The notes under the pieces: model-generated
The model's database searches: none
What the model saw: the letters and a program-made list of their open reading frames with translations, nothing else
What the model was told of the DNA's origin: nothing
Shown: positions 1,459 to 42,729 of the stretch, one piece after another
Layout: every line of letters starts with the position of its first letter
Numbering within the stretch: position 1 is the first letter of the stretch
Program-made: the position numbers and the translations under genes
Origin: an uncultured bacterium
GTDB lineage: Bacteria > Bacillota_I > Bacilli_A > RFN20 > CAG-826
Assembly (NCBI GenBank): GCA_949291375.1
Contig: CASEVI010000002.1
Coordinates: 104,069 to 168,068 of the forward strand
Length of the DNA: 64,000 nt
Direction of reading: 5' to 3'

Positions 1459-4413
1459 TTATTCACCTTCAATAGAATCTTCAAAAGGATTATCTACATT
1501 ATAGAAAACTGGTTTATTACCATTATTGGTTGCATTATTAACATTACTAATAGTAGTTTCATCAATAACCAATGTGCACTTATTAGCATCCGTATTAGTC
1601 ATATAAGCATAGATGTATGGGAAATAGAATTCACCATTAGAACCTTCAGCGTCTCTTTCAAAAGTTACATTAGTTAAAGTTAATGATTTATCGTTTGCGT
1701 AGCCAGAAGTTCTATTTTCAGCCCAACGATCTCCTAAAACAATATATCCTAAAGCAACGCTATTTCCATCACCCCAAGCTGTTTTAGAATAATCAACAGA
1801 ATAGGAAGATTTATCGTATTCTTTAATAGAAACTTTACAATCAGTTAAAGTAACATTGCCAGCTCTAACAATTACAGCTTGGTCATCACCACAAATCGAT
1901 GATTTATTAACTTTAACGATGGATGGAATATTAATTAATAAGCCAGTACCCATACTTCCACTTAAAGTTGAATTATTAACATCAACAATAATATTGTAGT
2001 TTTCAACTTTTGATGCATTTGTTGATAAACCAAATGAAACACCTTCGACAGTAGAATTATTGACAACTACTTTAGCGGCATCTCCATTTGGATAAATAGC
2101 ACACGAATCACTTTCGTAAGAAACGTTATCTAAATTTAACGAAGCTCCACTTTGAACAATTAATGCTCCAAGAGATACTCTATTTGGACTTGGATTGCCT
2201 GTACTTGGATCAACATCATAAACAAGACTTCCTTTTTCTTCACTACTACTTGTAATGTTTAATATTTGGCCATTACTTATAGTTGTTGATAAAGTATTAA
2301 TATTTTCCTTTTCATTGTATGTTCCCGTACTTGCGGTTTTAACAGTTAATCTTTTACCATTTAAATCAAGATTTGTTTCTTCTCTACCTTCAACTGGTAA
2401 CTTGCTTGTAGTAGTAACTTCTTTATTTAATTTAAAATATTTAACACCACTAACAACCACATTTTGATTATTCATTAAGGTTAATTGATTTGCATCATCA
2501 ATTAATAATGGATTTTCTTTACTACCATCTCCTCCAGCAAACTTAACTCCTTCAAGAGGTGTTCCTTTTAATACTTTCTTATCGCCATTATTATCCGAAT
2601 AAGTTACTTCACTATAAAGTTGACCATTAATAAAGACGTTTTGAACGGTTTCAACATCTCCTTCAACATTTGCAACTTTAACAAAATTAGATGCTTTTGC
2701 TTCAATTTTTACTCCATTAACACTAACATCTTTTGGATATTTTTCATCCTTAGCAAGTAATTCGAGTTTATCGTATGAATTATTTCCCCAACAAGCATCA
2801 AATACAGCTAATAAACCACCTTTTATAGTTGTAGTTAATCTTCCAGGTTTAGAAATAGTTTCTCCGCTATCTCCTGCTAATGTAGAAACAGTGTCTTCTG
2901 TTTCTACATTATTATACTGATATTCTGTTTTTAAATTATCTTTTGTTAATTTAACTCCATTATGAGTTAAATTATTAACATTAACATCAAAATAAGAAGC
3001 ACTATCTTGAGAAGAGTAAGTTGTTAAATCATTTTGTTGCCATAAATTAAACATGATTACTGGATTTTTGCCATTATCGTTAATGTTTAAATTTTCTAAG
3101 TTTATTGAAACAGACTTATTTTCTGAATTAGTAGTTTTTTCATAATCTGCTAATGTTAAGAAATTAGTTTTACCTTCAAAAGAAGAGTCTTTAATAGTAA
3201 TTGAAGCATCATCAGCAAATTGTTGAGCAGAAATAATTGTTCCAGTTAAACCTTTAACATCTGTATTTGAAATTTCTAAATTTGAAATAGTTGAACTTGT
3301 TAATTGAGTCATTAAAGAAACTCCGCTATCTTTTCCATCATAAGAGACTCTTACATTAGAAAGAGTAATATCACTTGTTTCAGCTTGAATCAAAGTATGT
3401 AAAGCGTTATTTCCCATTGAATCTTTACTAGTTACATCTAAAGATACATTTTCTAATGTTAAAGAACCACCTTTTCTAACATAGGAAATAATATTTTCAT
3501 CTCCATTAAATGAAGTTTCACTTCCTACTTCAGCGCTTAAAGTAATATTAGAAAGTGTTAAATCATCAGATGATGTAATAGAAGATTTGTCTGTTAATGT
3601 TAATTTAGCATTACTTCCATCTTCTTTTTTGCCATCAATAACGACAGGGTTATTATTTGTATTTCCACTAATTTCAATTTTTGAAGCGGTTAAATCTTCA
3701 TTTACATTAACTACAACTGCTTCTCCTTCTGGAGTTCCGGTTGGAACTTCAACTTTTAAAGAACCACCAGTTGTATCAGGAGTTACGGAAGTTGCAACTT
3801 TTCCACTAACGACAAAGCCACCTTCCATCATTTTAATAGCAGTTGTTTCTAAACCAGTATCGCTATAAACAACAGTTCCATTATTTTTAATATCCCAAAC
3901 AAAAGATACATCACCACTTGAATCAGTAGGAACAAAAGTAAATGTAACTTCTTCTCCTACAAGTGCTGAACCTACATTAGAAGTAATATATCCTCCTTCA
4001 ACAGGTAAAATTGTATTTGAATAAGCGGTTTCTCCTGGTTTACCTTGACTTCCAGTTGAGCCATTTAATCCATCTTTTCCATCTTCACCATCTTCACCTT
4101 TAATATTCATTTTTAAAGTCCAACCAGCTTCTTCTTTTTGATAAACATCGCCATTAGTGGTATTTAAATACATATCGCCAACCTTACCTAATGTGTCAGC
4201 TGGTTTAGAAGTTCCGGTTAACCAAGTTGAACCATCTTTCCCATCTTCTCCATCTTCTCCTGGATCTCCTTTATCTCCTTTAGGGCCAGTTTCTCCAGTA
4301 GGACCTGCTGGACCGGTATCTCCTTTATCTCCCTTTTCTCCGCTACAACTACTTAAACCTAATAAACCAATGAGTGTTAAAGCAGTTAAGGATAATAATT
4401 TTGTTTTTTTCAT
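1459..4413 (-). CDS. Collagen-like surface lipoprotein, 984 aa
   Basis: The first residues form a lipoprotein signal (MKKTKLLSL...LSSC, lipobox Cys near residue 23), so the product is expected to be lipid-anchored on the outer face of the membrane. Residues about 25-62 are Gly-X-Y repeats (GDKGDTGPAGPTGETG...), followed by a linker module WLTGTSKPADTLG...GDVYQK, a second Gly-X-Y block (GEDGEDGKDGLNG) and SNTILP. The remaining ~850 residues are rich in Asn/Ser/Thr and short beta strands (LTLSNITL, ISNTDVKGL, LTNVTF), as in parallel beta-helix surface proteins, with a FAGGDGSKENPLLID repeat-start motif around the middle. Two paralogues lie at 4930 and 10473. The start has AGAGG upstream. Binding partner and role are unknown; adhesion or surface variation is inference. 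Confidence 0.85.
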   Translation of the reverse strand: MKKTKLLSLTALTLIGLLGLSSCSGEKGDKGDTGPAGPTGETGPKGDKGDPGEDGEDGKDGSTWLTGTSKPADTLGKVGDMYLNTTNGDVYQKEEAGWTLKMNIKGEDGEDGKDGLNGSTGSQGKPGETAYSNTILPVEGGYITSNVGSALVGEEVTFTFVPTDSSGDVSFVWDIKNNGTVVYSDTGLETTAIKMMEGGFVVSGKVATSVTPDTTGGSLKVEVPTGTPEGEAVVVNVNEDLTASKIEISGNTNNNPVVIDGKKEDGSNAKLTLTDKSSITSSDDLTLSNITLSAEVGSETSFNGDENIISYVRKGGSLTLENVSLDVTSKDSMGNNALHTLIQAETSDITLSNVRVSYDGKDSGVSLMTQLTSSTISNLEISNTDVKGLTGTIISAQQFADDASITIKDSSFEGKTNFLTLADYEKTTNSENKSVSINLENLNINDNGKNPVIMFNLWQQNDLTTYSSQDSASYFDVNVNNLTHNGVKLTKDNLKTEYQYNNVETEDTVSTLAGDSGETISKPGRLTTTIKGGLLAVFDACWGNNSYDKLELLAKDEKYPKDVSVNGVKIEAKASNFVKVANVEGDVETVQNVFINGQLYSEVTYSDNNGDKKVLKGTPLEGVKFAGGDGSKENPLLIDDANQLTLMNNQNVVVSGVKYFKLNKEVTTTSKLPVEGREETNLDLNGKRLTVKTASTGTYNEKENINTLSTTISNGQILNITSSSEEKGSLVYDVDPSTGNPSPNRVSLGALIVQSGASLNLDNVSYESDSCAIYPNGDAAKVVVNNSTVEGVSFGLSTNASKVENYNIIVDVNNSTLSGSMGTGLLINIPSIVKVNKSSICGDDQAVIVRAGNVTLTDCKVSIKEYDKSSYSVDYSKTAWGDGNSVALGYIVLGDRWAENRTSGYANDKSLTLTNVTFERDAEGSNGEFYFPYIYAYMTNTDANKCTLVIDETTISNVNNATNNGNKPVFYNVDNPFEDSIEGE

Positions 4414-4579
4414 AGTTTATACCTATACCTCTAAATAATTATTTTTCAGCATTTAAAAATTGCTGAAAAATGTTTTTCTATGAAAAAAGCCTAAATTAAA
4501 AAAAAAAAAAAAACAAGTCTAGAAACACAAAAATATAACCCTATAAAAAGATAAGGAAATAGACTTGTCACTTATTATA
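4414..4579 (-). promoter_or_regulatory. Structured leader of the 984-aa lipoprotein: -10, stem-loop, 16-nt homopolymer, second hairpin
   Basis: On the minus strand: TATAAT (4579-4574), then the stem ACAAGTCTA (4521-4513 pairs with 4568-4560), a T16 tract (4513-4498), the conserved block AATTTAGGC, a hairpin TTTTTCAGCA/TGCTGAAAAA (4470-4442) and AGAGG before the ATG. The stem plus T-run has the form of an intrinsic terminator inside the leader. The same order and an identical distance (85 nt) between ATG and T-tract are seen upstream of the 1087-aa paralogue. Confidence 0.65.
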
Positions 4580-4645
4580 CATAAGATTAAGAAGATCTTA
4601 ATTAAAAGATAATATCCTTTATAACTTCCTTATTATTCTTATTAC

Positions 4646-4858
4646 CTATCTATTTCTTCCTAATATTAATTTTTCTAGACCAACATTATTAATACGCATA
4701 TAAGCAATCACTTCTAAATTATAATGTATAGAAACATTTATATAATTTTCTTCGATATCAAATATATCCTAATCATAATGCTTTAAAACTTCATTAACTC
4801 TATAACTTCTAGCCAAAATAGAAATAAATTTAATTAAAAATAGAAAGAAGATAACTAA
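4646..4858 (-). pseudogene. Possible remnant of an AlbA_2-type ATP-binding regulator (COG2865)
   Basis: The minus strand of this intergenic region has a coding-like frame with one internal TAG: ILARSYRVNEVLKHYD*DIFDIEENYINVSIHYN, ending at 4646. The pattern I..I..SY...F.IEENYI.V.I.YN resembles the segment after the GHKL-like domain of COG2865 regulators. The match is short and made by eye, so it is tentative. It overlaps the upstream regions of both flanking lipoprotein genes. Confidence 0.3.
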
Positions 4859-4861
4859 ATA

Positions 4862-4922
4862 TACCATATTTTATAAACGCTTATAAAATAGGATATACAT
4901 TACATATATAAGAGAGGTAATA
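4862..4922 (+). promoter_or_regulatory. Upstream hairpin and ribosome site of the 694-aa lipoprotein
   Basis: TTTTATAAACGCTTATAAAA near 4870-4890 is an imperfect palindrome about 40 nt before the ATG, followed by AGAGAGGTAA as ribosome site. It may be an operator or a leader hairpin; no clear -35/-10 pair was assigned. Confidence 0.35.
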
Positions 4923-4929
4923 CTAATAT

Positions 4930-7014
4930 ATGAAAGAATATAAAACTAAAAAATTAAGATTAATCTCTTTATTAGCTTTAAGTACTATAACTTTATCTTC
5001 TTTAATTAGTTGTAGTTCTATTAAAGGAGATAAAGGAGACACAGGTTCTACTGGTCCAACTGGAGAAACTGGTCCTAAAGGAGATAAAGGAGATCCAGGA
5101 AGTGATGGAAAAGATGGAGAAGATGGTTCATTATGGTTAACAGGAACATCTAAACCAATAGATTCATTAGGTAAAGAAGGAGATATGTATCTTAATACAT
5201 CTAATGGCGATGTCTATCAAAAAGAAGAAAGTGGATGGACATTAAAAATGAATATTAAAGGTGAAGATGGTGAAGATGGAAAAGATGGATTAAATGGTTC
5301 ATCGGGAAGCCAAGGAAGACCAGGAGAAACCGCATGGTCCAATACAATCCTCCCTTCTACTGATGGAGTAATCATTCCTTCTTTAGGAAGTCAAAAGGTT
5401 GGTGAAGATATTACTTTTACTTTTGATTGCGAGTCGTTAGATGAAGCTAATGGCGAAAAAATCATATGGTCAATTATAAATAAAGAAGGCGACACCAAAA
5501 CTTACGAAGGAAAAAGTGTCACTTTAAAAATGGAAGCAGGTGGTTTTGTTGTTAGTGCTCAAAAATCAGTCGGTAACATAACTATCGCAAATAGCGAAAG
5601 TGAATTAAAAGAACAATTAGAAAACTTACAGCCTGGTGAAAATACAATTATTTTAAATGATGAGGTTGAATTGAAAGCTGAAGATATTAGTTCTATTTCA
5701 ACTATGTCAAAAAATGAAATAAACTTATTAAATAATAAAAGAGAAAAATCATCATTAAAAACAGGAAAACTTGAAATTTATAGTTCTGATAATGAAAACG
5801 TTACATTAAATATTTTATCAAATGGTAATAAGAAGAAACTTAAATTCCCATTTTTGACCGTTATTGGAAGTGGTGATGTAGATTTAAGATTTAATAATGT
5901 TGATTTGATCTTAGATTTGGATTTCTCAAATTTAGATGTTAATGAAGCTCTTATATATGGACGCTTCAATTTCATTAATTCTAAAGGAGTGAATAAAATA
6001 TCTTTTAATAATTCAACATTTTCAATTGAACCAAGCAAAGAAATTTTAAATAGCGGTACATATACAATTTTAACTCCAAATTTTATTAATTTTGATGGTA
6101 AAAGTTTAGAATTCAATAATTTTGTCCAAAATAAAAGGTTTTCAAATTCTAGTTGGGGATTTATACAAATGAGTTCAAATGATGGACAGAGTATTTATAG
6201 CAGTTTAGGAAATATGAATAGTAACTTAGAAAGTATAAAAATTAATAATTCCACAATATATACAAGTGTTCCTTTTAATATATCGTCCTTTAGAAATTCA
6301 CTTTCTTTAGATATTAACATCAATAACTCAAGTTTCTATAATTGTAAACCATATAACCGACATATGAGTGATGGTTCTCCCTTAGATTACTTAATGCCTT
6401 TCTTTATGCTAGATATAGATAGAGAAATAAACAAAAATTTTAATGTTAACATCGATATTAATAATGTTTCTTATGGATTATATTGGGATGAACAATTAGA
6501 TGAATTTCCAGTATTTTTAACTGACGGCTCCCCATCAACATTTGTTTTTTATTCTACATTAAATGATAGTTATCGGAACGACGAATACCATAATTTTGAT
6601 GAATCTTTATATGAAAAAATAGACGAACATTTTAATCCTGCTAATGATTTTAATGATCTTTCTTTAAATGATAAAGTAAATATTTCACTTAATAACTTTT
6701 CATTATATGGAGAAAAAATTAATTCATTTGATGGCTTTGAAATACCTCAAGGTGAAAATATATTAAAAACTTATTATTGCGATTCTTGTCAAAAGGATGT
6801 TAATTGTATTGATTATTGTAAAACTTGGAAAGATTTATATACAAAAAGAAATAAACCATTAATAACTTATTCATGGACATTAGATTTTTGTGGACATAAT
6901 ACCAATTTACCTGAAGGAGGCTATATAGGATCTAGTGGAATGTTTATTGATAACTCTTTATATCCATCTTTATCGTTAAATAATAAAAAGATAACTTCTT
7001 TTTATAACTACTAA
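4930..7014 (+). CDS. Collagen-like surface lipoprotein, 694 aa
   Basis: Paralogue of the 984- and 1087-aa lipoproteins. Signal peptide with lipobox LISC (Cys near residue 28), Gly-X-Y repeats, the WLTGTSKP...GDVYQK linker and a second Gly-X-Y block match residue for residue over long stretches, including 56 identical bases shared with the 984-aa gene in inverted orientation. From about residue 150 the sequence diverges: Asn/Ser-rich beta-strand repeats (LSLDININNSSFYN, FNVNIDINNVSYG) and, near residue 615, a Cys cluster (YYCDSCQKDVNCIDYC) plus CGHN that the paralogues lack. Start chosen at the ATG preceded by AGAGAGG. It is divergent from the 984-aa gene. It lacks the poly-T leader seen in the two paralogues. 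Confidence 0.85.
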   Translation: MKEYKTKKLRLISLLALSTITLSSLISCSSIKGDKGDTGSTGPTGETGPKGDKGDPGSDGKDGEDGSLWLTGTSKPIDSLGKEGDMYLNTSNGDVYQKEESGWTLKMNIKGEDGEDGKDGLNGSSGSQGRPGETAWSNTILPSTDGVIIPSLGSQKVGEDITFTFDCESLDEANGEKIIWSIINKEGDTKTYEGKSVTLKMEAGGFVVSAQKSVGNITIANSESELKEQLENLQPGENTIILNDEVELKAEDISSISTMSKNEINLLNNKREKSSLKTGKLEIYSSDNENVTLNILSNGNKKKLKFPFLTVIGSGDVDLRFNNVDLILDLDFSNLDVNEALIYGRFNFINSKGVNKISFNNSTFSIEPSKEILNSGTYTILTPNFINFDGKSLEFNNFVQNKRFSNSSWGFIQMSSNDGQSIYSSLGNMNSNLESIKINNSTIYTSVPFNISSFRNSLSLDININNSSFYNCKPYNRHMSDGSPLDYLMPFFMLDIDREINKNFNVNIDINNVSYGLYWDEQLDEFPVFLTDGSPSTFVFYSTLNDSYRNDEYHNFDESLYEKIDEHFNPANDFNDLSLNDKVNISLNNFSLYGEKINSFDGFEIPQGENILKTYYCDSCQKDVNCIDYCKTWKDLYTKRNKPLITYSWTLDFCGHNTNLPEGGYIGSSGMFIDNSLYPSLSLNNKKITSFYNY

Positions 7015-7441: not shown

Positions 7442-8698
7442 GATATTGAATTTTTAACAGATAAATACTTAAGTCATTTAAAAAATAGAATGAATAATGG
7501 ATTAATTAAAGTAATAACTGGTATTAGAAGAGTAGGTAAATCTTATTTATTATTTAATCTATTTTATAATTATCTTTTAAGTATAAATGTTGAATCATCA
7601 CACATTATTAAAATTGAACTAGATTTAAGAGAAAATAAAAAATATCGAGATCCAGATGAAATATTATTCTTTATTAAATCATTAATAAAAGATGACAAAA
7701 AATATTATATCTTGCTTGATTAAGTTCAAATGTTAGATGATTTTGAAGAAGTTTTAAATTCCTTACTTTAATTAAATAACGTTGATATTTATGTAACAGG
7801 AAATAATTCAAAATTTCTTTCTAAAGATATAATTACTGAATTTAGAGGAAGAGGAGATGAAATACATCTCTATCCTTTAACTTTTAAAGAATACAAAGAA
7901 AACTATAATGGTGATATTTATCATGCTTGGGCTGATTATATTTTATATGGTGGACTTCCTTTAATTTTATCGATAAAAGCAGAAACACAAAAGGTAAATT
8001 ATTTAACTACTTTATTTGAAGAAACTTATATAAAAGATATTTTAGAGCATCATAAAATAATTAAAACTCAAGAATTAGAAGATTTAATTAATATTATAGC
8101 TTCTCAGATTGGATCATTATCTAACGCTTCAAAAATAGAAAAGACTTTTAAAAGTGTTTTAAATTCAAAAATTAGTATAAATACGATTAAAGAATATATC
8201 GATTGTTTAGAAGATGCATTTATTATCTCTAGAGCTTATCGATATGATGTAAAGAGAAGAAAATATATTGGAACTCCGTTAAAATTTTATTTTGAAGATG
8301 TCGGTTTAAGAAATGCTCGACTTGGTTTTAGACAAATAGAAGAAAATCATTTAATGGAAAATATTATCTATAATGAACTAAAATTTAGAGGATTTAATGT
8401 TGATGTTGGAATAGTCAATAAAAGAGAAAACGATAAAGAAGGAAAAAATATTCGAAAATCATATGAAATTGATTTTATAGCTAGTTTAGGAAATAAACGA
8501 TATTATATTCAATCAGCTTATTCTTTAACTAATAAGGAAAAAGAAAATCAAGAAATGCAATCTTTAATTAATATTAATGATTCATTTAAAAAGATAATTA
8601 TTGTTAAAGATATTATTAATATTTATCGTGATGAAAACGGAATAACTACAATGAATATTTTTGACTTCCTTTTAAATGAAAATAGTTTAGACTTATAA
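7442..8698 (+). pseudogene. AAA ATPase (DUF4143 family), near full length with two nonsense codons
   Basis: A single frame encodes about 400 residues of an AAA ATPase: VITGIRRVGKSYLL (Walker A), YILLD*VQMLDDFEEVL, VDIYVTGNNSKFLS, FRGRGDEIHLYPLTFKEY, then a winged-helix-like region and the C-terminal domain FEDVGLRNARLGFRQ and YEIDFIASLG. It is broken by TAA at 7721 and TAA at 7769. The first replaces the catalytic Glu after the Walker B Asp. No ATG is in frame near the ribosome-site-like GGGGGA (7435-7440); the ATG at 7440 leads to a stop after five codons, so the start has also shifted. Surrounding genes use TAA as normal stop, so readthrough is unlikely. Confidence 0.85.
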
Positions 8699-8796: not shown

Positions 8797-10071
8797 TAAA
8801 ATGCATAGGAAAAACAACAACTTGTAAAAAATTCTCTAAAACTATTTATAAACTTGGCCTTGAAAGAGAATTAAATAACTTAAAAATGCAACTTAACATT
8901 GATTCTTCACTAGTTTTTAATAAAGAAAAACCGATTCTTTTTGATGAGTGGCAAAACTATACTCCGCTTTTGAAATGAAATTAAAGACCAAATCGATGAC
9001 CCTTTTAGTAAGCCAGACCTTTTTTATTCACCAATTCTACTATACCTCATGCAAAAAATTACAATAAAACCAAAATAATAATATTTTTAGTGAAATAAAT
9101 TCAAAATTACATACGGTACCGGAAGATTTAAAGAAATAACAATGAGACCTCTCTCTCCTTATATGAATCTAAAGAATCAAATGGATTAATTTCTTTATTA
9201 AGCCTTTTTGATGAAAATGTAAATATAAATGGAAAAAATCTACTCTTAATATCGAGGATTTAATTTTTGCAACCGTTAGAAGCGGATTTCCTTCTTCTAT
9301 TTTTGCTAATAAAAGCGATGCAATTAAATTACCTAAAGATTATTTATCAGATCTTATTAATTATGATATAAGCGATTATGATAATGTAAAAAGAGACCCT
9401 GTTTTAACATCCGTTTTTTAAAAATATATTCTAAAAATATTTCTACTTTAGAAAAAAATCAAAGATGATTAATAAAAAAGAGGTGAAAATTTTTCATTTA
9501 GTGAATCTACTTATTATGATTATAAAAATATTTTAGAAAAATTGTTTGTTAATGAAGATGTTGATGCATGGTCACCACTTTTTAAAAGTAAAACTAATAT
9601 GAGTTCAGTTCCTAAAAAGTATTTTTCTGAACCTTCTTTAGCTATTGCGGCTTTAAATTTAAGCGTTGATTTCTTTAAAGATAATCTTATCGATTATGGC
9701 TTATTTTTTGAATCTTTAGCAATAAGAGATTTAAAGATTTATTCTTCTAGATTTGATGGAAAATATATTATTATCATGATAGAAACGGATTAGAAAGTGA
9801 TGTTGTTTTGCTATTAAACAATGGAAGATACGCTTTAATTGAAATTAAATTAAAAGATAGTCAAGCACTTATAGCAAGTAAACATTTATTAAAAATTGAA
9901 TCTTTAATTAAAAATTATAATATAAAAATAACTGATCCTTATTTAAAAATGGATCTTCCTTCTATATTAATTTGTATTGTTGGAAGTAATAATGCTTATA
10001 TAATAAATAATAAAGTTCACATTGTTCCTATTGATACATTAAAGGATAAAATAATTTTATCTTTTAATTAG
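8797..10071 (+). pseudogene. AAA ATPase (DUF4143 family), heavily frameshifted
   Basis: Pieces of one ATPase are readable in shifting plus-strand frames: GLKCIGKTTTCKKFSKT (Walker A region), KPILFDEWQNYTPLL (Walker B, DEWQ), FKEITMRPLSLYES, LIFATVRSGFPSSIFA, then 9542-9793 (KYFSEPSLAIAALNLS...FFESLAIRDLKIYSS) and 9808-10071 (ESDVVLLLNNGRYALIEIKL, VHIVPIDTL). Order and motifs follow the family from end to end, but there are at least five frame breaks or stops. The gene is clearly dead. Its C-terminal half is close in sequence to the fragment at 752-1198. Confidence 0.85.
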
Positions 10072-10375
10072 TACTTCAAAGTAATAATCACTTAACTTTG
10101 AAGTAACTTTGAAGTTTTACTTCAAAACACTTTGAAGTAAATAGTGTTTTTTTATATGTTTTTAATCATTATTTAAAATACACTTTGAAGTTTTTATTAA
10201 TAAATATATAAAAAATACGATAACTATCGAATATTTTCTTACTTCAAAGTGAATGCAGATAAGTTTGAAGTAACTTTGAAGTTTTACTACAAAGTGAATG
10301 AATAAGTTTGAAGTAAAGTTTGAAGTAACTTTGAAGTTTTACTACTAAGCGATGATTTAAGTTTGTAGTAAAGCT
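10072..10375. repeat. Cluster of degenerate TTTGAAGTAA repeats in both orientations
   Basis: The motif ACTTTGAAGT or its complement ACTTCAAAGT occurs more than ten times in 300 bp, often as a longer unit AACTTTGAAGTTTTACT. Opposite copies can form stems, for example 10-bp arms at about 10074 and 10100. Spacing is irregular, so it is not a CRISPR array. On the minus strand the longest frames read as KTSKLLQ-type repeats with stops, which could be the wreck of a repetitive linker region in a lost protein. Confidence 0.65.
10207..10236 (-). terminator. Terminator-like hairpin, minus-strand twin of 634-660
   Basis: On the minus strand AAAATATTCGATAGTTATCG is followed by TATTTTTTATA; 26 of 28 bases match the element at 634-660. 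It lies inside the TTTGAAGTAA repeat cluster. Confidence 0.4.
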
Positions 10376-10472: not shown

Positions 10473-13400
10473 TTATAATTTTTTATAACCTGTAATTAAA
10501 TTATCAGTAATTGTAAATAAATATTTATCTCCAACACCATCGATATCAATATTTTCATATCCATCATTAGGTGTTAAAACTAAATATAATGTATTATCTA
10601 CAATAGCATATGAAACAGTTCCAAATACATTAAATTTATCAATTTCAGTTAGTTGAACATCAGAATGGTCAACAACAAATTCATCGTATTTCATTGTTTC
10701 ATATTTTAAGTCTTTGACATTAACTAAATCACCAGATGATGTATTTAAATCTAATTTTGTTTCAATATCAAAATAATATCTTACACCATTTGATTGATCA
10801 TCACCATTTGGCCAAGTAAGATTGTTTATAGAAAGACCATAGTTCAATCTTGAACCATTATCACTAGAATAACTTGTATAAAATTTACCATCGACTGTTG
10901 AATAATAAACAGCGACATCTCCTGTTTCATCACTTAAATCATTTTTTGAAACAATATTATTAGTAATTGCTTTTGAAGTTTCATCCGCATTAACTTTATT
11001 ATCGTCAAGTCCACAAACCAAACCTTTGTAAGCGTCAGTCATTGAATTTAGGGAGCCATTTAATGAACAATTTTCTAATGTAAAATAAGAGCTTTTATCT
11101 TCGATATTATTCCAGTTTGGACTAGTTACACCTGATGCATTAGAAAATAAATAACCGACTTGATTCATAGCTCCTAATGTGCCGGTGAAACTAGAATTCT
11201 TTATTGTTGTTTTATAATTTGGTGTATAAGGAGAATAACCAAAGAACACTCCAGCACAAGTTCCTGAATTAAAAATATTAAAATTATTAATATTAACGTC
11301 TTCTACTAAAATATTGAAAACTTCATCTGAAGGATGAGCATTGAATAAGGCATTTGGAGTTATAAAACCGAAATTATTAGAATTAACAATTGTTGGCTCA
11401 CCATTACCATTAATGTCTATGTTGGAAATAGTTAAATTTTCAAGAAAACTATAAACATCATCACTGTTATTCCAAGCAACATTAAATAATTTCCCTAATT
11501 TTCCATTTGTTAAATCGATTGTTAAATTTTTAATTTCAACATCTCCATATACATTATTTAAGATAAAAGAGTTTTTACTCTCATCAGCAAAACTTATTTT
11601 ATGCCCGTTTCCATCAATGGATCCCGTGAACCATTCTAAAGAGCTATCAAGTACTAAATCTGCATTAAGTTTATAACTATAACTTTCTTTAGTTAAATAT
11701 TCGGCAGTTGCTTTTGATGTATCAGTTAATTTAGTTACTTCATTAATTAATTTCCATTGATCTAAGTTATCAACTTGTAAAGGATTTTCTGCTGTTCCAT
11801 CGCCTCCAGCAAACTTAACACCATCTACTTTAGTTGATAATGTTTCATCAACACTTCCATCATCTTTTAAATATAGTTCAGAATATAATTGACCATCAAC
11901 AAATGTATTTGTTGATGTAGCTTCAACTCCTTCTACATTAATAATTACATCTTTATTAAACATTTTTTCAGACGGTATTTTGTCATAACTTTCTTTATCA
12001 ATATTTAAAGTGAAAGAATTTTTTTCTGGTGTGTTATCGTATGCGTATAAATAGTAAGTAGGAGTTTCTGTATTTTTTTCATCTGCTAATACGCTCAAAG
12101 ATTCATTAGCGTCTCTATTTTTAATTGTGAGTCCGTCAACATTAACAGTTGAGTCTACTTCTTGATAATTTACGGTATTTGATCTATCTCCCAAAACTAA
12201 AGCAGCGCTAGGTATTTCGTTGCCTGATCCCCAATCACCATTTAAGTAATTATTATTTTTTGTAACTAAAGATGCAAAATTATTAATATTTTCTCCGTAT
12301 TCTATAGTTACATTCTTTAGAGTGACGTTTCCTTGTCTAACAAACATTCCTTGCCTATCACCAGATATAACAGTGTCTTCGATATAAACATTACAAGGAA
12401 TATTAACATATAAACCAGCATTGTCTCCATCATCTGTGTTTGAAGAAATCTCAGAAGAAATAATATTTATTTCTACATTTTGACCTTCGACAGCTGCGTT
12501 TGTTCCAAATCCATAAACACTTGACTCTACTTTAGAATTTAGGATATTTAAAGTAGATGCACTTCCTTCAGCCATTAAGCCACCTTTTGATAATAGCTCA
12601 ACATTATTTAATGTTAAGGTCGATCCATCTTTAACATTTATATCTGCAGAAGTTGTATTTGATGTTTTTAAAGAATTGTCAATAATGCCATTAGAAATTT
12701 CAACATTAGCCCCACCAGAAACAGCATAAGCATTTCCAGAATTTGGAAGATCAACATTATTTTCACCCAAGTTTAAAAATACTTCTTTTTCTTGTCCCGT
12801 TTTCCCTTCAAATAAGTTATTTATAGTGTCGGTATTAATAGTAACTTTATTTTCATTTGAAGATAAACCTTTTGCTAATTCAAAATATTTGGCACCTGTT
12901 TCGGCAATTGATTCTTTTCCTAAAGAATCAATATTATTTATATCATCAATAACTAATGCTGATTCAGCTGTTAAACCATCGCCAGAAGAAAATTTTGGGG
13001 AATCATCGCCAGTTTGAGCTTGCCCTTTTTCTATGACATTTCCAAACGCATCAACTTTTCCACCGGTATATAAGACACCATTTTCAAAATACGAAGTTTT
13101 TCCAACTTTATCAGAAGCTTCAAATTTAGCAGCTACAACAAATCCATTCTTGACCATTGTTGTTTTATAGGAATAAACACCTTCAACTGGTGCATCAATA
13201 TTAGTAATTTTCTCACCATTTAAAATTACTTCTGCAAGTGAATAATTATCATCTGGCTCAAATGTGAAAATAACTTCACTGCCTTCAACAGCGCTTCCAA
13301 GATTTACACCAATGTTTCCACCGGTTGTTGGTAAAATTGTATTTGACCAAGCGGTATCGCCTTTTGGACCGGTTGAACCATTACTTCCATTATGGCCATC

Positions 13401-13736
13401 TTTTCCATCTTCACCATCTTCACCTTGGATATTCATTTTTAATTTCCATCCATCAGCTTCTTTTTGATAGACATCACCATTAGATGTATTTAAGTACATA
13501 TCACCTAATTTACCTAAAGTATCAGCTGGTTTAGTTGTTCCAGTTAACCAAGTTGCACCATCCTCGCCATCTTCTCCATTTTCTCCAGGATCACCTTTAT
13601 CCCCTTTAGGGCCAGTTTCTCCTTGAATTCCTTGATCCCCTTTATCCCCTTTTGGACCTTGAGAAGAACAACTGCTTAAGCCTAAAATTCCAATGAGTGC
13701 TAAAGCAGTTAATGATAATAATTTTGTTTTCTTCAT
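10473..13736 (-). CDS. Collagen-like surface lipoprotein, 1087 aa
   Basis: Largest of the three paralogues. Signal MKKTKLLSLTALALIG with lipobox LSSC, then Gly-X-Y repeats (GPKGDKGDQGIQGETG), the WLTGTTKPADTLG...GDVYQK linker, GEDGEDGKDGHNG, SNTILP and a NYSLAEVILNGEKI...TMVKNGFVVAAKF segment like the beta-grasp repeats of other surface proteins. The rest is Asn/Ser/Thr-rich with many short strands (ITISS, VTLKNVTIEYG, LENLTISNIDING), suggesting parallel beta-helix folds, and the motif FAGGDGTAENPLQVDN near residue 650 is shared with the 984-aa protein. Ribosome site AGAGG precedes the ATG. Exported and lipid-anchored by inference; ligand unknown. Confidence 0.85.
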   Translation of the reverse strand: MKKTKLLSLTALALIGILGLSSCSSQGPKGDKGDQGIQGETGPKGDKGDPGENGEDGEDGATWLTGTTKPADTLGKLGDMYLNTSNGDVYQKEADGWKLKMNIQGEDGEDGKDGHNGSNGSTGPKGDTAWSNTILPTTGGNIGVNLGSAVEGSEVIFTFEPDDNYSLAEVILNGEKITNIDAPVEGVYSYKTTMVKNGFVVAAKFEASDKVGKTSYFENGVLYTGGKVDAFGNVIEKGQAQTGDDSPKFSSGDGLTAESALVIDDINNIDSLGKESIAETGAKYFELAKGLSSNENKVTINTDTINNLFEGKTGQEKEVFLNLGENNVDLPNSGNAYAVSGGANVEISNGIIDNSLKTSNTTSADINVKDGSTLTLNNVELLSKGGLMAEGSASTLNILNSKVESSVYGFGTNAAVEGQNVEINIISSEISSNTDDGDNAGLYVNIPCNVYIEDTVISGDRQGMFVRQGNVTLKNVTIEYGENINNFASLVTKNNNYLNGDWGSGNEIPSAALVLGDRSNTVNYQEVDSTVNVDGLTIKNRDANESLSVLADEKNTETPTYYLYAYDNTPEKNSFTLNIDKESYDKIPSEKMFNKDVIINVEGVEATSTNTFVDGQLYSELYLKDDGSVDETLSTKVDGVKFAGGDGTAENPLQVDNLDQWKLINEVTKLTDTSKATAEYLTKESYSYKLNADLVLDSSLEWFTGSIDGNGHKISFADESKNSFILNNVYGDVEIKNLTIDLTNGKLGKLFNVAWNNSDDVYSFLENLTISNIDINGNGEPTIVNSNNFGFITPNALFNAHPSDEVFNILVEDVNINNFNIFNSGTCAGVFFGYSPYTPNYKTTIKNSSFTGTLGAMNQVGYLFSNASGVTSPNWNNIEDKSSYFTLENCSLNGSLNSMTDAYKGLVCGLDDNKVNADETSKAITNNIVSKNDLSDETGDVAVYYSTVDGKFYTSYSSDNGSRLNYGLSINNLTWPNGDDQSNGVRYYFDIETKLDLNTSSGDLVNVKDLKYETMKYDEFVVDHSDVQLTEIDKFNVFGTVSYAIVDNTLYLVLTPNDGYENIDIDGVGDKYLFTITDNLITGYKKL

Positions 13737-13898
13737 ATTTACTTTAAATTCCTCTTAATATCTATTTTTCATGTTTAAAAACGATGAAAAATATAAATTT
13801 CTACCTAAAAGCCTAAATTTAAAAAAAAAAAAAACAAGTGTTTGGGAGAAAGTTCTTTATACTAATCGCCATTGTTACAGACTTGTGGCACATTTATA
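13737..13898 (-). promoter_or_regulatory. Structured leader of the 1087-aa lipoprotein: -10, stem-loop, 14-nt homopolymer, second hairpin
   Basis: Same layout as the leader at 4414-4579. On the minus strand: TATAAA (13898-13893), stem ACAAGT (13886-13881 with 13839-13834), T14 (13834-13821), AAATTTAGGC, hairpin TTTTTCAT/ATGAAAAA (13791-13765), AAGAGG, ATG. Arm sequences of the second hairpin differ from the first leader but still pair, and the T-tract ends 85 nt before the ATG in both. The tract length differs (14 against 16). Confidence 0.65.
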
Positions 13899-14512: not shown

Positions 14513-15403
14513 TTAAATAATATTATCAATATCATTTATTGCTTCACAAATATCATTATAAACTAGTTTTTCTACACTATTAAATTGGTTATTAAAGAAA
14601 GTGTATTGTCTTTTAGCATAATTTCTTGTGTTTTTCTTAATTAATTCAATAGTTTCTTCTAATGTAGCTTTATTTTCTAAATATGGAATAAATTCTTTAT
14701 ATCCAATAGCTTTTAAACCATTAGAATTTTTATCATATTTAGAAAATAAATATTTAACTTCATCGACTAAACCACTATTAATCATGTTATCAACTCTTTT
14801 ATTAATATCTTCATATAATTTATCTCTAGGAGGTTTAATATAGATAAATTTAGTATTTTCATATAATAATTCATCTTTTTTATTATTATTAAGTTCACTT
14901 TTACTCTTTTTATGAACTTCGTTTATAAAAAGAGATCTTAATAATCTTTTGCGGTTATTAACTCCAATTTTTAAAGCATCTTCTTTATCTAGATTATATA
15001 ATTCATTATAAAGTTCTATATTAGATAAATCTTTTTTATAATCTTCATCCATTTTTATTTCTTCTTTAGTAAAAATATAATTAAAAAGAATTGCTTTTAT
15101 ATATAGTCCCGTTCCTCCAACAAAGATTAAATCATTACTTTTACTATATTTATCAATTACTTCTCTACCCTTTTTTTGAAATGTTGCTACATCATTATTT
15201 TGGCTAAGTGGTAAATAATCATATAAAAGATAATATCCTTTAGACAATTCTTCTTTTGAAGGTTTAGCGCTTCCCTTATCAAGTTCTTGATAGACTTGAA
15301 AAGAATCATAATTAACGATATATGAAAAAGGGAGTTTTTCATGTAGTTTTATAGCTAAATCACTTTTTTTAGACGCTGTTGGACCCATTATTACGTAAAT
15401 CAT
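14513..15403 (-). CDS. miaA: tRNA dimethylallyltransferase
   Basis: Transfers a dimethylallyl group to N6 of A37 in tRNAs that read UNN codons, the substrate later methylthiolated by MiaB. At 296 aa it has the family's usual length. Visible motifs: MGPTAS near residue 6, YDSFQVYQELDKGSAKPS near 33 and VGGTGLYIKAIL near 95. The Walker A reads GPTASKKS where nearly all homologues have GPTASGKT/S, so the conserved Gly before Lys is Lys; the DNA (TCTAAAAAAAGT) is unambiguous. The other family motifs are intact, so the gene is probably functional. It closes the rny-ymdB-miaB-126 aa-miaA run, 4 nt after the preceding gene. Confidence 0.93.
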   Translation of the reverse strand: MIYVIMGPTASKKSDLAIKLHEKLPFSYIVNYDSFQVYQELDKGSAKPSKEELSKGYYLLYDYLPLSQNNDVATFQKKGREVIDKYSKSNDLIFVGGTGLYIKAILFNYIFTKEEIKMDEDYKKDLSNIELYNELYNLDKEDALKIGVNNRKRLLRSLFINEVHKKSKSELNNNKKDELLYENTKFIYIKPPRDKLYEDINKRVDNMINSGLVDEVKYLFSKYDKNSNGLKAIGYKEFIPYLENKATLEETIELIKKNTRNYAKRQYTFFNNQFNSVEKLVYNDICEAINDIDNII

Positions 15404-15407
15404 ATTT

Positions 15408-15788
15408 TTATACTTTTAATTGTCTTTCTAATTCTAATTTTACTTCACTTAAAATAGAAAGAATATCATTTTTAAGTTCGTTATATTTTTTAATTAATTC
15501 ATCATTATTATATTCTTTTACCTTTAAAGCATATAAAGTAGGATCACTATTTTTTAATTCTTCAATTTCATCTCTTTTATTTAAATAATCACTTTCATTA
15601 ATTCTCATTTTTAAAGCATAAAATGCAGCTAAAAGCGATTTATCAATCGCATCTTTTTTAATTCTTAAACATTCTTCAATAATAAAATCATCATATGTTT
15701 CCGGTGAAACACCTAAATAATCAAATTCTTCATTATTAGTAGAATCTTCTTCTATAAATATTTTTTTAATTAATTCATCCTTTTCCAT
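15408..15788 (-). CDS. RicA/YlbF-like small protein candidate, 126 aa
   Basis: Lies between miaB and miaA, 4-8 nt from each, clearly co-transcribed. The product is acidic at the N-terminus and helical throughout, with LKMRINESDYLNKRDEIEEL...SDPTLYALKVKEYN in the second half. This spacing (Ser-Asp-Tyr, then about 20 residues, then D..L..L..EY) resembles the Com_YlbF fold, and in Bacillus the gene after miaB is ricA (ymcA), a member of the RicAFT complex that works with RNase Y. Its synteny with rny in this same operon supports that reading. The sequence match is weak, so a family label is provisional. Confidence 0.45.
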   Translation of the reverse strand: MEKDELIKKIFIEEDSTNNEEFDYLGVSPETYDDFIIEECLRIKKDAIDKSLLAAFYALKMRINESDYLNKRDEIEELKNSDPTLYALKVKEYNNDELIKKYNELKNDILSILSEVKLELERQLKV

Positions 15789-15796
15789 ATATTTTT

Positions 15797-17269
15797 TTAT
15801 TTAATCATTTCTCCATTAAATGAATATAATTTATCTTCTAAAATTTTAACTTTAACTAACTTGCCAATTAAAGAAGGGTCTCCATTAAAATTAACAATTT
15901 TATTATTAAACATTACTCCACTTACTTTATTTTTATCTTTTTTAGAAACAGATGTAACTAAAACTTCTTCAATCTTATTAATAAATGAAGCATTATAAAT
16001 AGGATAATATTTTTCTAGTTCATCAGTTAATCTTTTAAATCTTTCAACCTTTTCTTTATCGCTAATTTTATCTATTAATTTAGAAGCAGCAGTTCCTTCT
16101 CTAGGTGAATAAATAAAGGTGAAAGCTGAAGCATATTTTACTTTTTTAACTAAATCTAAAGTATCTAAAAATTCTTCTTCACTTTCATTAGGGAAACCAA
16201 CGATTATATCAGTAGATAAAGCAACATCAGGAATTTTAGTTCTTATTCTATCAACAAGTGCCAAATATTCTTCTTTACTATATCTTCTAGCCATTCTTTT
16301 TAATACCGAATTTGATCCACTTTGAACAGGAAGATGAATATATTTCATAATGTTATCGTGTTTAGCAATTACATCAATTACTTCATCACTAAATTCAGAA
16401 GGATAAGAAGTTAAAAATCTAACTCTTTTAATAGGTAAAGAAGCTACTTCATCTAAAAGTTTTGCAAACGTTATATTTTTATCTTTTAAATCTTTACCAT
16501 AACTATCAACATTTTGACCAAGTAAAATAATTTCTTTATATCCTAAAGAAAGTAATAATTTACATTCTTTTAAAATATCTTCTTTGTCTCTGCTTCTCTC
16601 TTTTCCTCTAGTTTGAGGGACGATACAATAAGTACAAAATTTATCACATCCAAAAGTAATATTTACATAAGCACTATAAGAATTATTTCTTCTAGTTGGA
16701 ATATCTTCAACAATTTCTCCTTCTTTACTTGAAACATCAACAATTCTTTTTTTATTGTTATTTTCCATATATAAATATAAAAGATTAAGAAGATTATCAA
16801 TATTATGAGTTCCAAAGATAATATCAATATAAGGATATTTAGTAATTAAATTATTTAAAGTATCTTTAGTTTCAACCATACATCCGCAAAGAATTAAAAC
16901 TAAATCTTTATTTTTTTCTTTTAGTTTTTTAATATTACCAATTTCAGCATAAACCTTATTATTAGCATTTTCTCTAACACTACATGTATTAATAACTATT
17001 ATTGAAGCTTCTTCTAATTTTTCTACTCTTTTAAGTCCTAAAGAAGCTAACAATCCAGCAATAGATTCTTCATCTCTAATATTAGCTTGACAACCATGAG
17101 TTTTAATAAAAAATGTATTATTTTTAATCAATCTTTCTTTTAAAAGAGGGTTATTAAGAAATAATGAAACAAAAGTTTCATTATTATAATGAATTGTATC
17201 GATATTAGTTTGATTTCTTTTAATTGCTTCAATAAATGAAGGCTTAGATAAATACATTACTTCTCTCAT
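15797..17269 (-). CDS. miaB: tRNA-2-methylthio-N6-dimethylallyladenosine synthase
   Basis: Radical-SAM methylthiotransferase that converts i6A37 to ms2i6A37. The N-terminal UPF0004 domain shows the three cluster ligands (THGCQAN, NTCSVRENA, LCGCMVE); the radical-SAM core has CDKFCTYC; the C-terminus (about 425-490) fits a TRAM RNA-binding domain. 490 aa is normal. The annotated ATG overlaps the ymdB stop (ATGA), so translation is coupled; a second in-frame ATG five codons later (MYLSKPSF) is an alternative start. Works in sequence with MiaA, encoded two genes downstream. Confidence 0.95.
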   Translation of the reverse strand: MREVMYLSKPSFIEAIKRNQTNIDTIHYNNETFVSLFLNNPLLKERLIKNNTFFIKTHGCQANIRDEESIAGLLASLGLKRVEKLEEASIIVINTCSVRENANNKVYAEIGNIKKLKEKNKDLVLILCGCMVETKDTLNNLITKYPYIDIIFGTHNIDNLLNLLYLYMENNNKKRIVDVSSKEGEIVEDIPTRRNNSYSAYVNITFGCDKFCTYCIVPQTRGKERSRDKEDILKECKLLLSLGYKEIILLGQNVDSYGKDLKDKNITFAKLLDEVASLPIKRVRFLTSYPSEFSDEVIDVIAKHDNIMKYIHLPVQSGSNSVLKRMARRYSKEEYLALVDRIRTKIPDVALSTDIIVGFPNESEEEFLDTLDLVKKVKYASAFTFIYSPREGTAASKLIDKISDKEKVERFKRLTDELEKYYPIYNASFINKIEEVLVTSVSKKDKNKVSGVMFNNKIVNFNGDPSLIGKLVKVKILEDKLYSFNGEMIK

Positions 17270-39939: not shown

Positions 39940-42729
39940 TTAATGTAATTCCTTCTTTAAATCGAGTTTTCTTAATGGTTTTAAAATAATTATTAAGGAA
40001 ATTAAGCAAATCAAAAGAAGAAATAAAATCATTACAAAAATAGAAAATGTCGAAAAATAGAAATTTGTAGCAATTCCAAAAATTTGTGTCGATAATATCT
40101 TCATTAAAAATGAAATTGATAATAGACTTGTCAAACTTATAAAAAACGATATAAAACCATTAAATAAGTTATTCATTAAAAAGTATTTCACTATTTCAAT
40201 ATTTGAAAATCCAATCATTATTAAAATCGCAATATCTTTTTTTGATTCTAAAAAGGAAATATAATTAATAATTGAAAATAAAATTATTGAAGAAAGTAAA
40301 GCTATAGAACTAAAAATTAATAAAAATAAAAATACATAATTCATTGTTTCATTTAAAGAATTATTAATTTCTTTTAATGGAGCAACAATTTCATAATCTT
40401 TCAATTTCGAATTTAATATCTTAATTTCGTCATCATTTAATTCTTTATCAAGTAAAAAAGTAACGCTATTCACATTTAGTTCAAATCCAGAGATTAGAAA
40501 TAAATCTCTAAATAGAGAAATCGAAAAATCATTATTATGATAAATTTCTACTTTGTCGTCATCAACTATTCCACTTATTCTTAATTCAATAGTTTTAAAT
40601 TCAGGAATCAACGTTTCATCTTCATTTTCTTTAACTGATGTAATAGTTGAAACATAAATTGTTTTTCCTAATGGACTTTCTTCATTTAAAATTTTAGCCA
40701 TTCCTTTCGAGATAGCCACTTCAAAACTAGTCAAAGGATAATTCCCTTCTATATTTTTATTCATTTTTGGACTAAAACGAACAGTATTATTTTCTTGTTT
40801 TAAATAGTTTCCTTCCACAATCCCTTCAATATCTCCAAGAGAGTAATATTCTTCATAATTAATTTTATTTGAAAGATCAATTATTTCATTAATTTTGTTT
40901 AAACTTAACGAGAAAAATGTTGGTCTATAAAACCCATTTAAAATTGAACCAAAATTAACATATCCTCCATCAGTCGAATAATAATATTCACTAAAATCAT
41001 ATTCTTTTGAAAATGTATCGACAAAAGATAAATCAACACTATTTTTTAAAGCTTGATAACAATAAATACGATTTGAGTATTCATTCTCTTTTAAAGATGG
41101 ATGATAAGTTTTTTTATCTCCATCAAAAATATAGTTTCTGTATTCAGCTTCTTTTGTTAACTTATTCAACAAAGCAGAAGGAAAATTTACTGAATGAATG
41201 TAATAAACTTTTTTTAAAATCCAAGGATATTCTTCTTCTTTTTCAATTTCATTAGAAGAAGGAAACATCATTAAATTTTCAAAAACATATTCGTTGAATA
41301 AATAATCATTAGAATAAATTACGTTTTCTCTTCCAGGAATTACTCCTCTTAAAGTAAAAATTTGTTCATCTTCATATGTCCAATAATTATTTCTAACTTT
41401 TAAAAGAATCGAAGGCTTTTTCGTCTCGATATATTCGCCTAAAGCATTATAAGTTTCTTTAATATTAAGTTTTTGACATAAATCAACCATTTTTTCATTA
41501 CTTAAAGATATAACGACTTCATCTTGACTGATCTTATTATTTATTCGCGGATAAATTTCACTAACTGAATTAAAAGTAGTAACATATTTAAATTCATTAA
41601 ATGAAGAAGCACTATAATCACTAATTTCTATTGGTTCATTATAATAATTTAAAAAATATATTTCGTTTTCTTCAATAAAAAAATCTTCTAAATTGTTTAA
41701 ATAAGAACAACCTACATAATCTATTTCATCTGGATTATTGACCATTATTTCTACAACATCATCGAAAGATGCTGAATAATAAGATAAAATTCCTGCATCA
41801 TCTTCCTTTCTTTTTAATAAAATCGCATTTTCTCCACCCATTCCTTCAAACGAAGAAACTATCATATTAGTTAATCCATCTTTCAAATAAAAAGTTAGCC
41901 CACTTACTAAAAGAGAAAATGATAAAAAAGAAATTATTGCAGATGTTCTTACTTTTTTAGATTTAAATAGAGTTTTAAAATGATTAAGAATAAAACTAAA
42001 ATTAATCTTTTTCAAAGACATTTTTTTCTTTTCTTTACTTAATAAAATTCTTTCTTTTTTTAAATCATTTACTATTTTTTCTTCTTTTAAATTATTTTTT
42101 TCTAGTTTTAAAACATAATCGCTATATTTATAAGCTAATTCTTTGTTATGAGTTACAACAATTACTAAATGATCTAATGATAAGTTTCTTAAATAAGAAA
42201 ATATTTTTTTACTATTTTCATTATCTAAAGATCCACTCGGCTCATCTGCTAAAATAATTGAAGGATTATTAATTAAAGCTCTTACGATTGCTACTCTTTG
42301 TTTTTCCCCTCCACTTAAATCTTTTACAAGAGAATATTTTAAATGACTAACATCAAATTTATATAATAAATCATCAATTTTTCTTTCTTTTTTATGTTTA
42401 GAAACATTTAAACCATTAAAAGCTAAGTTAATATTGTTATAAACATTATCTTCATCAAAAAGATTAAATGATTGGAAAACAAAACCGATATTATTTATTC
42501 TAAATAACCTTCTTTCTTTTTCCTTCATTTTATTTAATGGCTTATTAAAATAATAAATATTTCCACTTGTTTCGTTTTCAATTAAAGAAAGTATATTTAA
42601 AAAAGTAGATTTCCCACTTCCTGATTCTCCTAAAACAGAATAAAATCCGCTATCTTTAAAAGTATAATTTAAATCATCAAAAATAATCTCATTATTATAT
42701 TTTTTAGTTAAACCTTCTACTTTAAGCAT
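39940..42729 (-). CDS. MacB-like ABC ATPase/FtsX permease fusion, about 929 aa
   Basis: N-terminal ABC ATPase (Walker A GESGSGKSTFLN, signature DLSGGEKQRVAI, Walker B ILADEPSGSLD, H-loop VVTHN), a membrane helix near residue 265, a very large external domain (about 290-790) and three C-terminal membrane helices with the FtsX pattern (SIALLSSIILFS...). The topology matches MacB/BceB-type mechanotransmission exporters in one chain. The ATG at 42729 is preceded by AAGGAGG within the end of the previous gene; a longer frame to 42756 lacks a site. Likely forms a heterodimer with the 669-aa fusion. Substrate unknown; export of peptide or lipoprotein, or immunity, is possible. Confidence 0.85.
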   Translation of the reverse strand: MLKVEGLTKKYNNEIIFDDLNYTFKDSGFYSVLGESGSGKSTFLNILSLIENETSGNIYYFNKPLNKMKEKERRLFRINNIGFVFQSFNLFDEDNVYNNINLAFNGLNVSKHKKERKIDDLLYKFDVSHLKYSLVKDLSGGEKQRVAIVRALINNPSIILADEPSGSLDNENSKKIFSYLRNLSLDHLVIVVTHNKELAYKYSDYVLKLEKNNLKEEKIVNDLKKERILLSKEKKKMSLKKINFSFILNHFKTLFKSKKVRTSAIISFLSFSLLVSGLTFYLKDGLTNMIVSSFEGMGGENAILLKRKEDDAGILSYYSASFDDVVEIMVNNPDEIDYVGCSYLNNLEDFFIEENEIYFLNYYNEPIEISDYSASSFNEFKYVTTFNSVSEIYPRINNKISQDEVVISLSNEKMVDLCQKLNIKETYNALGEYIETKKPSILLKVRNNYWTYEDEQIFTLRGVIPGRENVIYSNDYLFNEYVFENLMMFPSSNEIEKEEEYPWILKKVYYIHSVNFPSALLNKLTKEAEYRNYIFDGDKKTYHPSLKENEYSNRIYCYQALKNSVDLSFVDTFSKEYDFSEYYYSTDGGYVNFGSILNGFYRPTFFSLSLNKINEIIDLSNKINYEEYYSLGDIEGIVEGNYLKQENNTVRFSPKMNKNIEGNYPLTSFEVAISKGMAKILNEESPLGKTIYVSTITSVKENEDETLIPEFKTIELRISGIVDDDKVEIYHNNDFSISLFRDLFLISGFELNVNSVTFLLDKELNDDEIKILNSKLKDYEIVAPLKEINNSLNETMNYVFLFLLIFSSIALLSSIILFSIINYISFLESKKDIAILIMIGFSNIEIVKYFLMNNLFNGFISFFISLTSLLSISFLMKILSTQIFGIATNFYFSTFSIFVMILFLLLICLISLIIILKPLRKLDLKKELH

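Follow-up and report, generated by a model that had tools for sequence, protein, structure and literature searches.

An exact 56-bp inverted repeat flanks the promoters and leader segments of two divergent lipoprotein genes, A and B, and the question is whether this repeat serves to invert the DNA between its arms. The window, that is, the whole 64-kb stretch of DNA analyzed here, corresponds to C2:104069-168068 in a genome of 12 contigs and 1.29 Mb (G000), which we compared with its relatives G002, G003, G010, G021 and G023.

A family of collagen-like lipoproteins

Gene A (1459..4413, minus strand) encodes a 984-aa lipoprotein with a signal peptide, a collagen-like stalk, a conserved module and a body that is mostly beta-strand. 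Its leader module (4003..4413, minus strand) comprises 137 aa and has the C-terminal end ..SNTILP. Gene B (4930..7014, plus strand) encodes a 694-aa lipoprotein with a leader module of 142 aa (4930..5355, plus strand), and a full-length homologue of B is present elsewhere in G003. The N-terminal modules of A and B contain a lipobox, collagen-like Gly-X-Y repeats and a GDMYLN/GDVYQKE block. A third copy is found in gene C (10473..13736, minus strand), a paralogue of 1087 aa with a leader module of 136 aa (13329..13736, minus strand; 99-100% identical across three species). Gene C adjoins miaA (14513..15403, minus strand), which is a constant flank of the C locus in these three species.

Collagen repeats were the sole Pfam match over the cut-off and were found in A, B and C. 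The lipobox Cys was identified by eye in an L-S-S-C or I-S-C motif which, together with the Gly-X-Y repeats, marks these proteins as collagen-like surface lipoproteins, in agreement with the first-pass annotation of A and B as divergent surface lipoproteins. The predicted structure of the A body consisted largely of beta strands and resembled beta-helix proteins only weakly; the model was poor (pLDDT 56), and we therefore take the fold as a hint only. A search for literature on such a lipoprotein family in uncultured Bacilli found nothing relevant.

Short or broken reading frames lie among the lipoprotein genes (752-1039, 8354-8698 and 9542-10071), and some resemble AAA_14/DUF4143 ATPases. These ATPases are intact in G003 (L043), suggesting that the broken frames of the window are decayed copies.

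The 56-bp inverted repeat

The exact arms lie at 4061..4116 within A and at 5242..5297 within B, as had been reported, and the adjacent bases mismatch at both sides. In both genes the 56-nt tract encodes KMNIKGEDGEDGKDGLN. It is embedded in longer imperfect arms of 333 nt with 85% complementarity, located in the leader modules of A (4003..4335) and B (5023..5355) and separated by 687 nt. The 64-kb window contains no longer exact inverted repeat; the next longest, of 31 nt and 27 nt, both occur between members of the same family.

Because the arms are clearly homologous, the sole question was whether 56 identical nucleotides exceed what paralogy would leave. Among codons for the same residue in A and B, synonymous differences numbered 0 of 18 inside the tract vs 32 of 103 outside. 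Under the genome codon bias, with codons treated as independent, 5.2 synonymous differences are expected in the tract; at the outside rate the probability of none is ~0.01, a value that precedes correction for the choice of the best stretch, the tract having been chosen post hoc. When codon columns were shuffled, 13 of 20,000 shuffles gave a 56-nt run. The exactness of the tract is thus a mild excess, weakly unusual given codon bias, such as local gene conversion or constraint could produce. Further, gene C matches 31 nt of the tract exactly, and the same 29-mer from the tract is kept in gene C and in genes of G003. The 56-bp repeat is the best-preserved stretch of a common family leader and ordinary for its family; its inverted orientation reflects nothing more than the divergent arrangement of the two genes.

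Proposed inversion at the A/B locus

The first-pass annotation had proposed that a 1.1-kb inversion at the repeat exchanges the leaders of A and B. In silico inversion of the 1,125 bp enclosed by the repeat gave two open genes, one of 689 aa (A leader and B body) and one of 989 aa (B leader and A body). The repeat is thus frame-preserving as proposed, but we found no sign that A/B inverts. The same annotation had offered C as a third partner in inversion. This part fails on orientation: C is oriented as A, so that recombination between A and C would delete or convert, not invert.

In the relatives, module gene pairs at the same locus were in direct orientation, and A/B was the only inverted module pair seen. 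The longest exact direct repeats of these same-locus genes measured 104 nt in G003, 47 in G021, 44 in G010 and 38 in G002. Since direct pairs can be identical over as much as 104 nt, inversion is not the reason for the A/B repeat, and long exact repeats are a property of the family rather than of inversion. Gene B was absent from the A/B locus in all relatives compared.

Exact inverted repeats flanking a promoter and leader segment are present at A/B; a dedicated recombinase nearby, or a core site, was not found. No serine recombinase or invertase was detected in the whole G000 genome and no tyrosine recombinase on the contig of the window; the two Xer genes of G000 lie on other contigs in housekeeping neighbourhoods. 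No short recombination site was found near A, B or C.

Inversion junctions in a sister cluster

Four sister genes, V, W, X and Y (C2 83-101 kb), lie outside the window, 6-21 kb away, and have another collagen-like leader in common. Compared with G000, the W-Y interval of G003 is inverted; in G021, the V flank continues into the W gene, in the opposite orientation. Upstream of the sister collagen-leader lipoproteins (in loci L009, L043 and L056) we found a 24-bp palindromic site (9-6-9), GTTCTAATT-TTTAAG-AA(A/T)TAGAAC. Sites of this type in G000 are located at C2:83097 (V), 92812 (W), 97591 (X) and 98063 (Y); the 24-bp form itself precedes W, X and Y only, and V is preceded by a degenerate form of 23 bp. 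The G003 junction is sharp at the palindrome, with W-type flank before it (90.7%, 151 nt) and Y-type flank after it (80.9%, 262 nt). In G021, the close similarity of the V and W leaders leaves the position of the junction less precise. For each inversion one junction was seen and the second was not. These between-species junctions argue that inversion is a real process in the genus.

Between the X and Y sites lie ~450 bp that separate divergent genes and are a candidate for an invertible promoter segment. Contig C16 of G003 (end of L043) stops 2 nt beyond its X site; a sample with both orientations would account for this, and ordinary assembly breakage might do so as well. Contigs C12 and C34 of G023 (start of L131, and L132) likewise terminate at or within a sister leader or site, and simple breakage at the repeats, or a sampled population of mixed orientation, could be the cause.

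In G002, the inverted leaders of the sister genes are identical over 104 and 176 nt, with a tyrosine recombinase alongside. This 400-aa enzyme (locus L130, G002 C7:5000-24000, at 15703-16905, minus strand) directly adjoins the sister-family cluster and is a candidate dedicated invertase; relatives of it are present in G000 (C5:69176, 48%), G003, G021 and G023.

A search of the window for the 24-bp site returned one match with three mismatches, at 41685, which is at chance level, and the site was rejected for A/B/C. The sister cluster thus supports inversion at A/B only by analogy.

Exchange of bodies behind conserved leaders

Recombination between leader and body, the other element of the earlier proposal, was seen in the family between species; at A/B itself, the direct pairs of the relatives and the lack of a recombinase on the contig and of a short site speak against inversion. 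At the C locus, the leader protein of G000_C is 100% identical to that of G021_3 (136 aa) and 99% identical to that of G003_d, but behind these leaders G021_3 and G003_d carry bodies that resemble the A body (46-47%) and not the C body. Between G000 and G021 the DNA of this locus is 95-100% identical from -900 to ~+400, dips over the T tract only, and then collapses. G003 is nearly as similar, and leader, promoter and the upstream 900 bp are ~97% identical in the three species. All three also share the 3' flank (C2:114043-114408), to which TTTGAAGTAACTTTGAAGTTTTACT repeats at 10087-10363, immediately downstream of C, belong.

Different bodies also follow three leaders of 98% identity in G003 and two near-identical ones in G002. 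Gene A is itself a mosaic: its promoter and start resemble G021_2, the later part of its leader G021_1, and its body G021_3. The end of the module is thus a body-exchange boundary on the time scale of species. The module may act as a homology anchor, at which general homologous recombination would swap bodies or convert leaders; exchange was observed between species only, and its rate could be slow.

T tracts in the proposed promoters of A and C

A run of 16 T (4498..4513, minus strand) lies within the proposed promoter of A, between the TTG of a putative -35 element (4514..4516, minus strand) and a putative -10 element, TAGGCT (4488..4493, minus strand; spacer 17 bp), and is a candidate slippage switch that the first-pass annotation had not mentioned. 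In the 5' leader of A, a hairpin (4442..4470, minus strand; TTTTTCAGCA..TGCTGAAAAA) was recognized by eye, and by the same inspection it persists in relatives with changed sequence. The proposed promoter of C contains a run of 14 T (13821..13834, minus strand) and again TAGGCT as putative -10 element (13810..13815, minus strand; spacer 16 bp). Both the T16 of A and the T14 of C lie 84 nt before the ATG. The box TAGGCT is a poor match to TATAAT.

In the whole G000 genome only three T runs of at least 11 nt were found, all of 14-16 nt, and two of them precede A and C. The third (C1:6187-6200; L066/L083) lies 93 nt upstream of a gene for a 210-aa secreted protein (MLKRKLLMTVLPLLTAGVLVGSGFSSW). 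In 96 kb of G000, runs numbered 117 (7 nt), 2 (8 nt) and 1 (9 nt), followed by one of 14 and one of 16 nt. In the multi-gene loci fetched from G000 and its relatives, all A/T runs of at least 12 nt were sense-strand T runs located 33-170 nt upstream of a module gene; these loci had been chosen for holding module genes, so the association is partly ascertained, and the whole-genome count of G000 is free of that choice. In module-bearing genomes of the genus, the T runs of 14 nt or more that we inspected lay before module genes, apart from that before the secreted-protein gene of G000; in genomes without close module genes, such runs were mostly located elsewhere.

The tracts have a common layout: CTTG or CTTGCG, the T run, a gap of four or five bases, and then TAGNNT. 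The implied spacers are bimodal, 16-19 bp in ten genes and 10-11 bp in three, and in the promoter of G003_d the TTG itself is lost. A promoter homopolymer thus occurs in several members of the family (T16 in A, T14 in C, and most relatives); B has no tract. Its length varies between constant flanks in the C orthologues, with T14, T9 and T7 behind 400 nt of upstream sequence that is ~97-98% identical. All tract lengths were read from the consensus sequence of one MAG per species, and the variation is between species only.

We infer that A and C may be switched on and off by slippage in a T tract that spaces the -35-like TTG from the -10-like TAGNNT. About 14-17 T's would give the 16-19 bp spacer needed by sigma-A, and 7-9 T's would not. 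Gene B, having no T tract, would not switch in this manner. Counting against slippage, a T tract directly upstream of the -10 box in Mycoplasma agalactiae was shown to cause no switching (PMC2268961). We also considered the T tract as a terminator and rejected this from the layout, because B is divergent and the end of miaA lies ~680 nt upstream of the C tract.

Weighing the explanations

Taken together, A, B and C probably form a family of collagen-stalk surface lipoproteins with a common leader and exchangeable, mostly beta-strand bodies, in which the leader marks the site of body exchange and the T-tract promoters are a likelier fast switch than inversion; this is the account that the sequence comparisons support best. 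As an on/off switch, the T tract is likelier than the 56-bp repeat. That the repeat is instead a working inversion site, with RecA or a recombinase inverting 1.1 kb and so exchanging the leaders and promoters of the two bodies, appears improbable. After such a flip, the T-tract promoter would drive one body and the promoter of B the other. The repeat is suited to this, being exact, in frame and close (1.1 kb) and yielding two intact genes; inverted sister genes 6-21 kb away have recombined between species, those of G002 combine long identical inverted leaders with an adjoining recombinase, and there is precedent in Ureaplasma mba/UU172 (PMC3047005). However, the direct pairs of the relatives show that the repeat needs no inversion, B is missing from this locus in them, and both the 24-bp site and a recombinase are absent, from the A/B/C region and from the contig, respectively. 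Further, the A and B leaders beyond the tract are merely ~85% alike, and frequent inversion with conversion should homogenise them.

Rather doubtful, though somewhat less so, is plain paralogy, by which A and B are old duplicates whose identity comes from constrained residues and little codon choice (K, N, E, D, I, M) in a genome of 26% G+C, with no switching and no useful rate of recombination. The probability of ~0.01 that remains after codon bias and before correction, and the 29-mer shared with C and G003, are in keeping with it. It leaves unexplained the clean replacement of bodies behind near-identical leaders at the C locus, and the three outlier T tracts.

It is conceivable, if unlikely, that the region is one surface-diversity island with three layers: T-tract spacer promoters at A and C, body exchange via the collagen-like leader, in which A and B would now and then invert at the 56-bp repeat, and, in the sister family, site-specific inversion at the 24-bp palindrome. 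If true, antigen variation of the Mollicute style (homopolymer promoters, reassortment of leaders and bodies, and inversion) would extend beyond the classic mycoplasmas to a genus of uncultured Bacilli. Existing metagenome reads allow a culture-free check of the predicted switches, for which the T tracts, the 24-bp site and the C locus of the three species supply exact coordinates.

Comparison with known systems

In Mycoplasma hyorhinis, according to the passage of PMC10502178 that cites Citti and Wise (1995), each vlp gene has a homopolymeric A tract in its promoter and switches by slippage. As far as that passage describes vlp, both are families of surface lipoproteins in which each gene has its own promoter with a long homopolymer of varying length. 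Unlike vlp as given there, the homopolymer here consists of sense-strand T residues flanked by -35-like and -10-like boxes, the proteins have a collagen-like stalk, and the switch is a candidate only; the likeness drawn here is one of layout. In vmm of Mycoplasma mycoides, the length of a repeat changes within the promoter spacer (PMC10502178), and on/off control via the -35/-10 spacer length is likewise proposed here; vmm is a single gene with a dinucleotide repeat, in contrast to a homopolymer in several genes.

The vpma genes of M. agalactiae undergo Xer1 inversions at sites in the 5' UTR (PMC2268961). The sister family outside the window resembles them in its conserved short site upstream of genes, with an inversion junction there, whereas A, B and C have no short site and the recombinase is not adjacent in G000. 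Both systems have a T tract that precedes the -10 box, although that of vpma does not switch. In Ureaplasma mba/UU172, inversions were demonstrated and the described mba repeats are 21 nt (PMC3047005), compared with 56 nt at A/B, where inversion is merely possible; in both cases, inverted repeats within coding N-terminal paralogues can yield in-frame chimeras. In vsa of Mycoplasma pulmonis, a 5' region is joined to silent 3' regions (PMC10502178, PMC3047005). The family described here similarly combines a kept leader with alternative bodies, but each gene has its own leader and the exchange is between species only.
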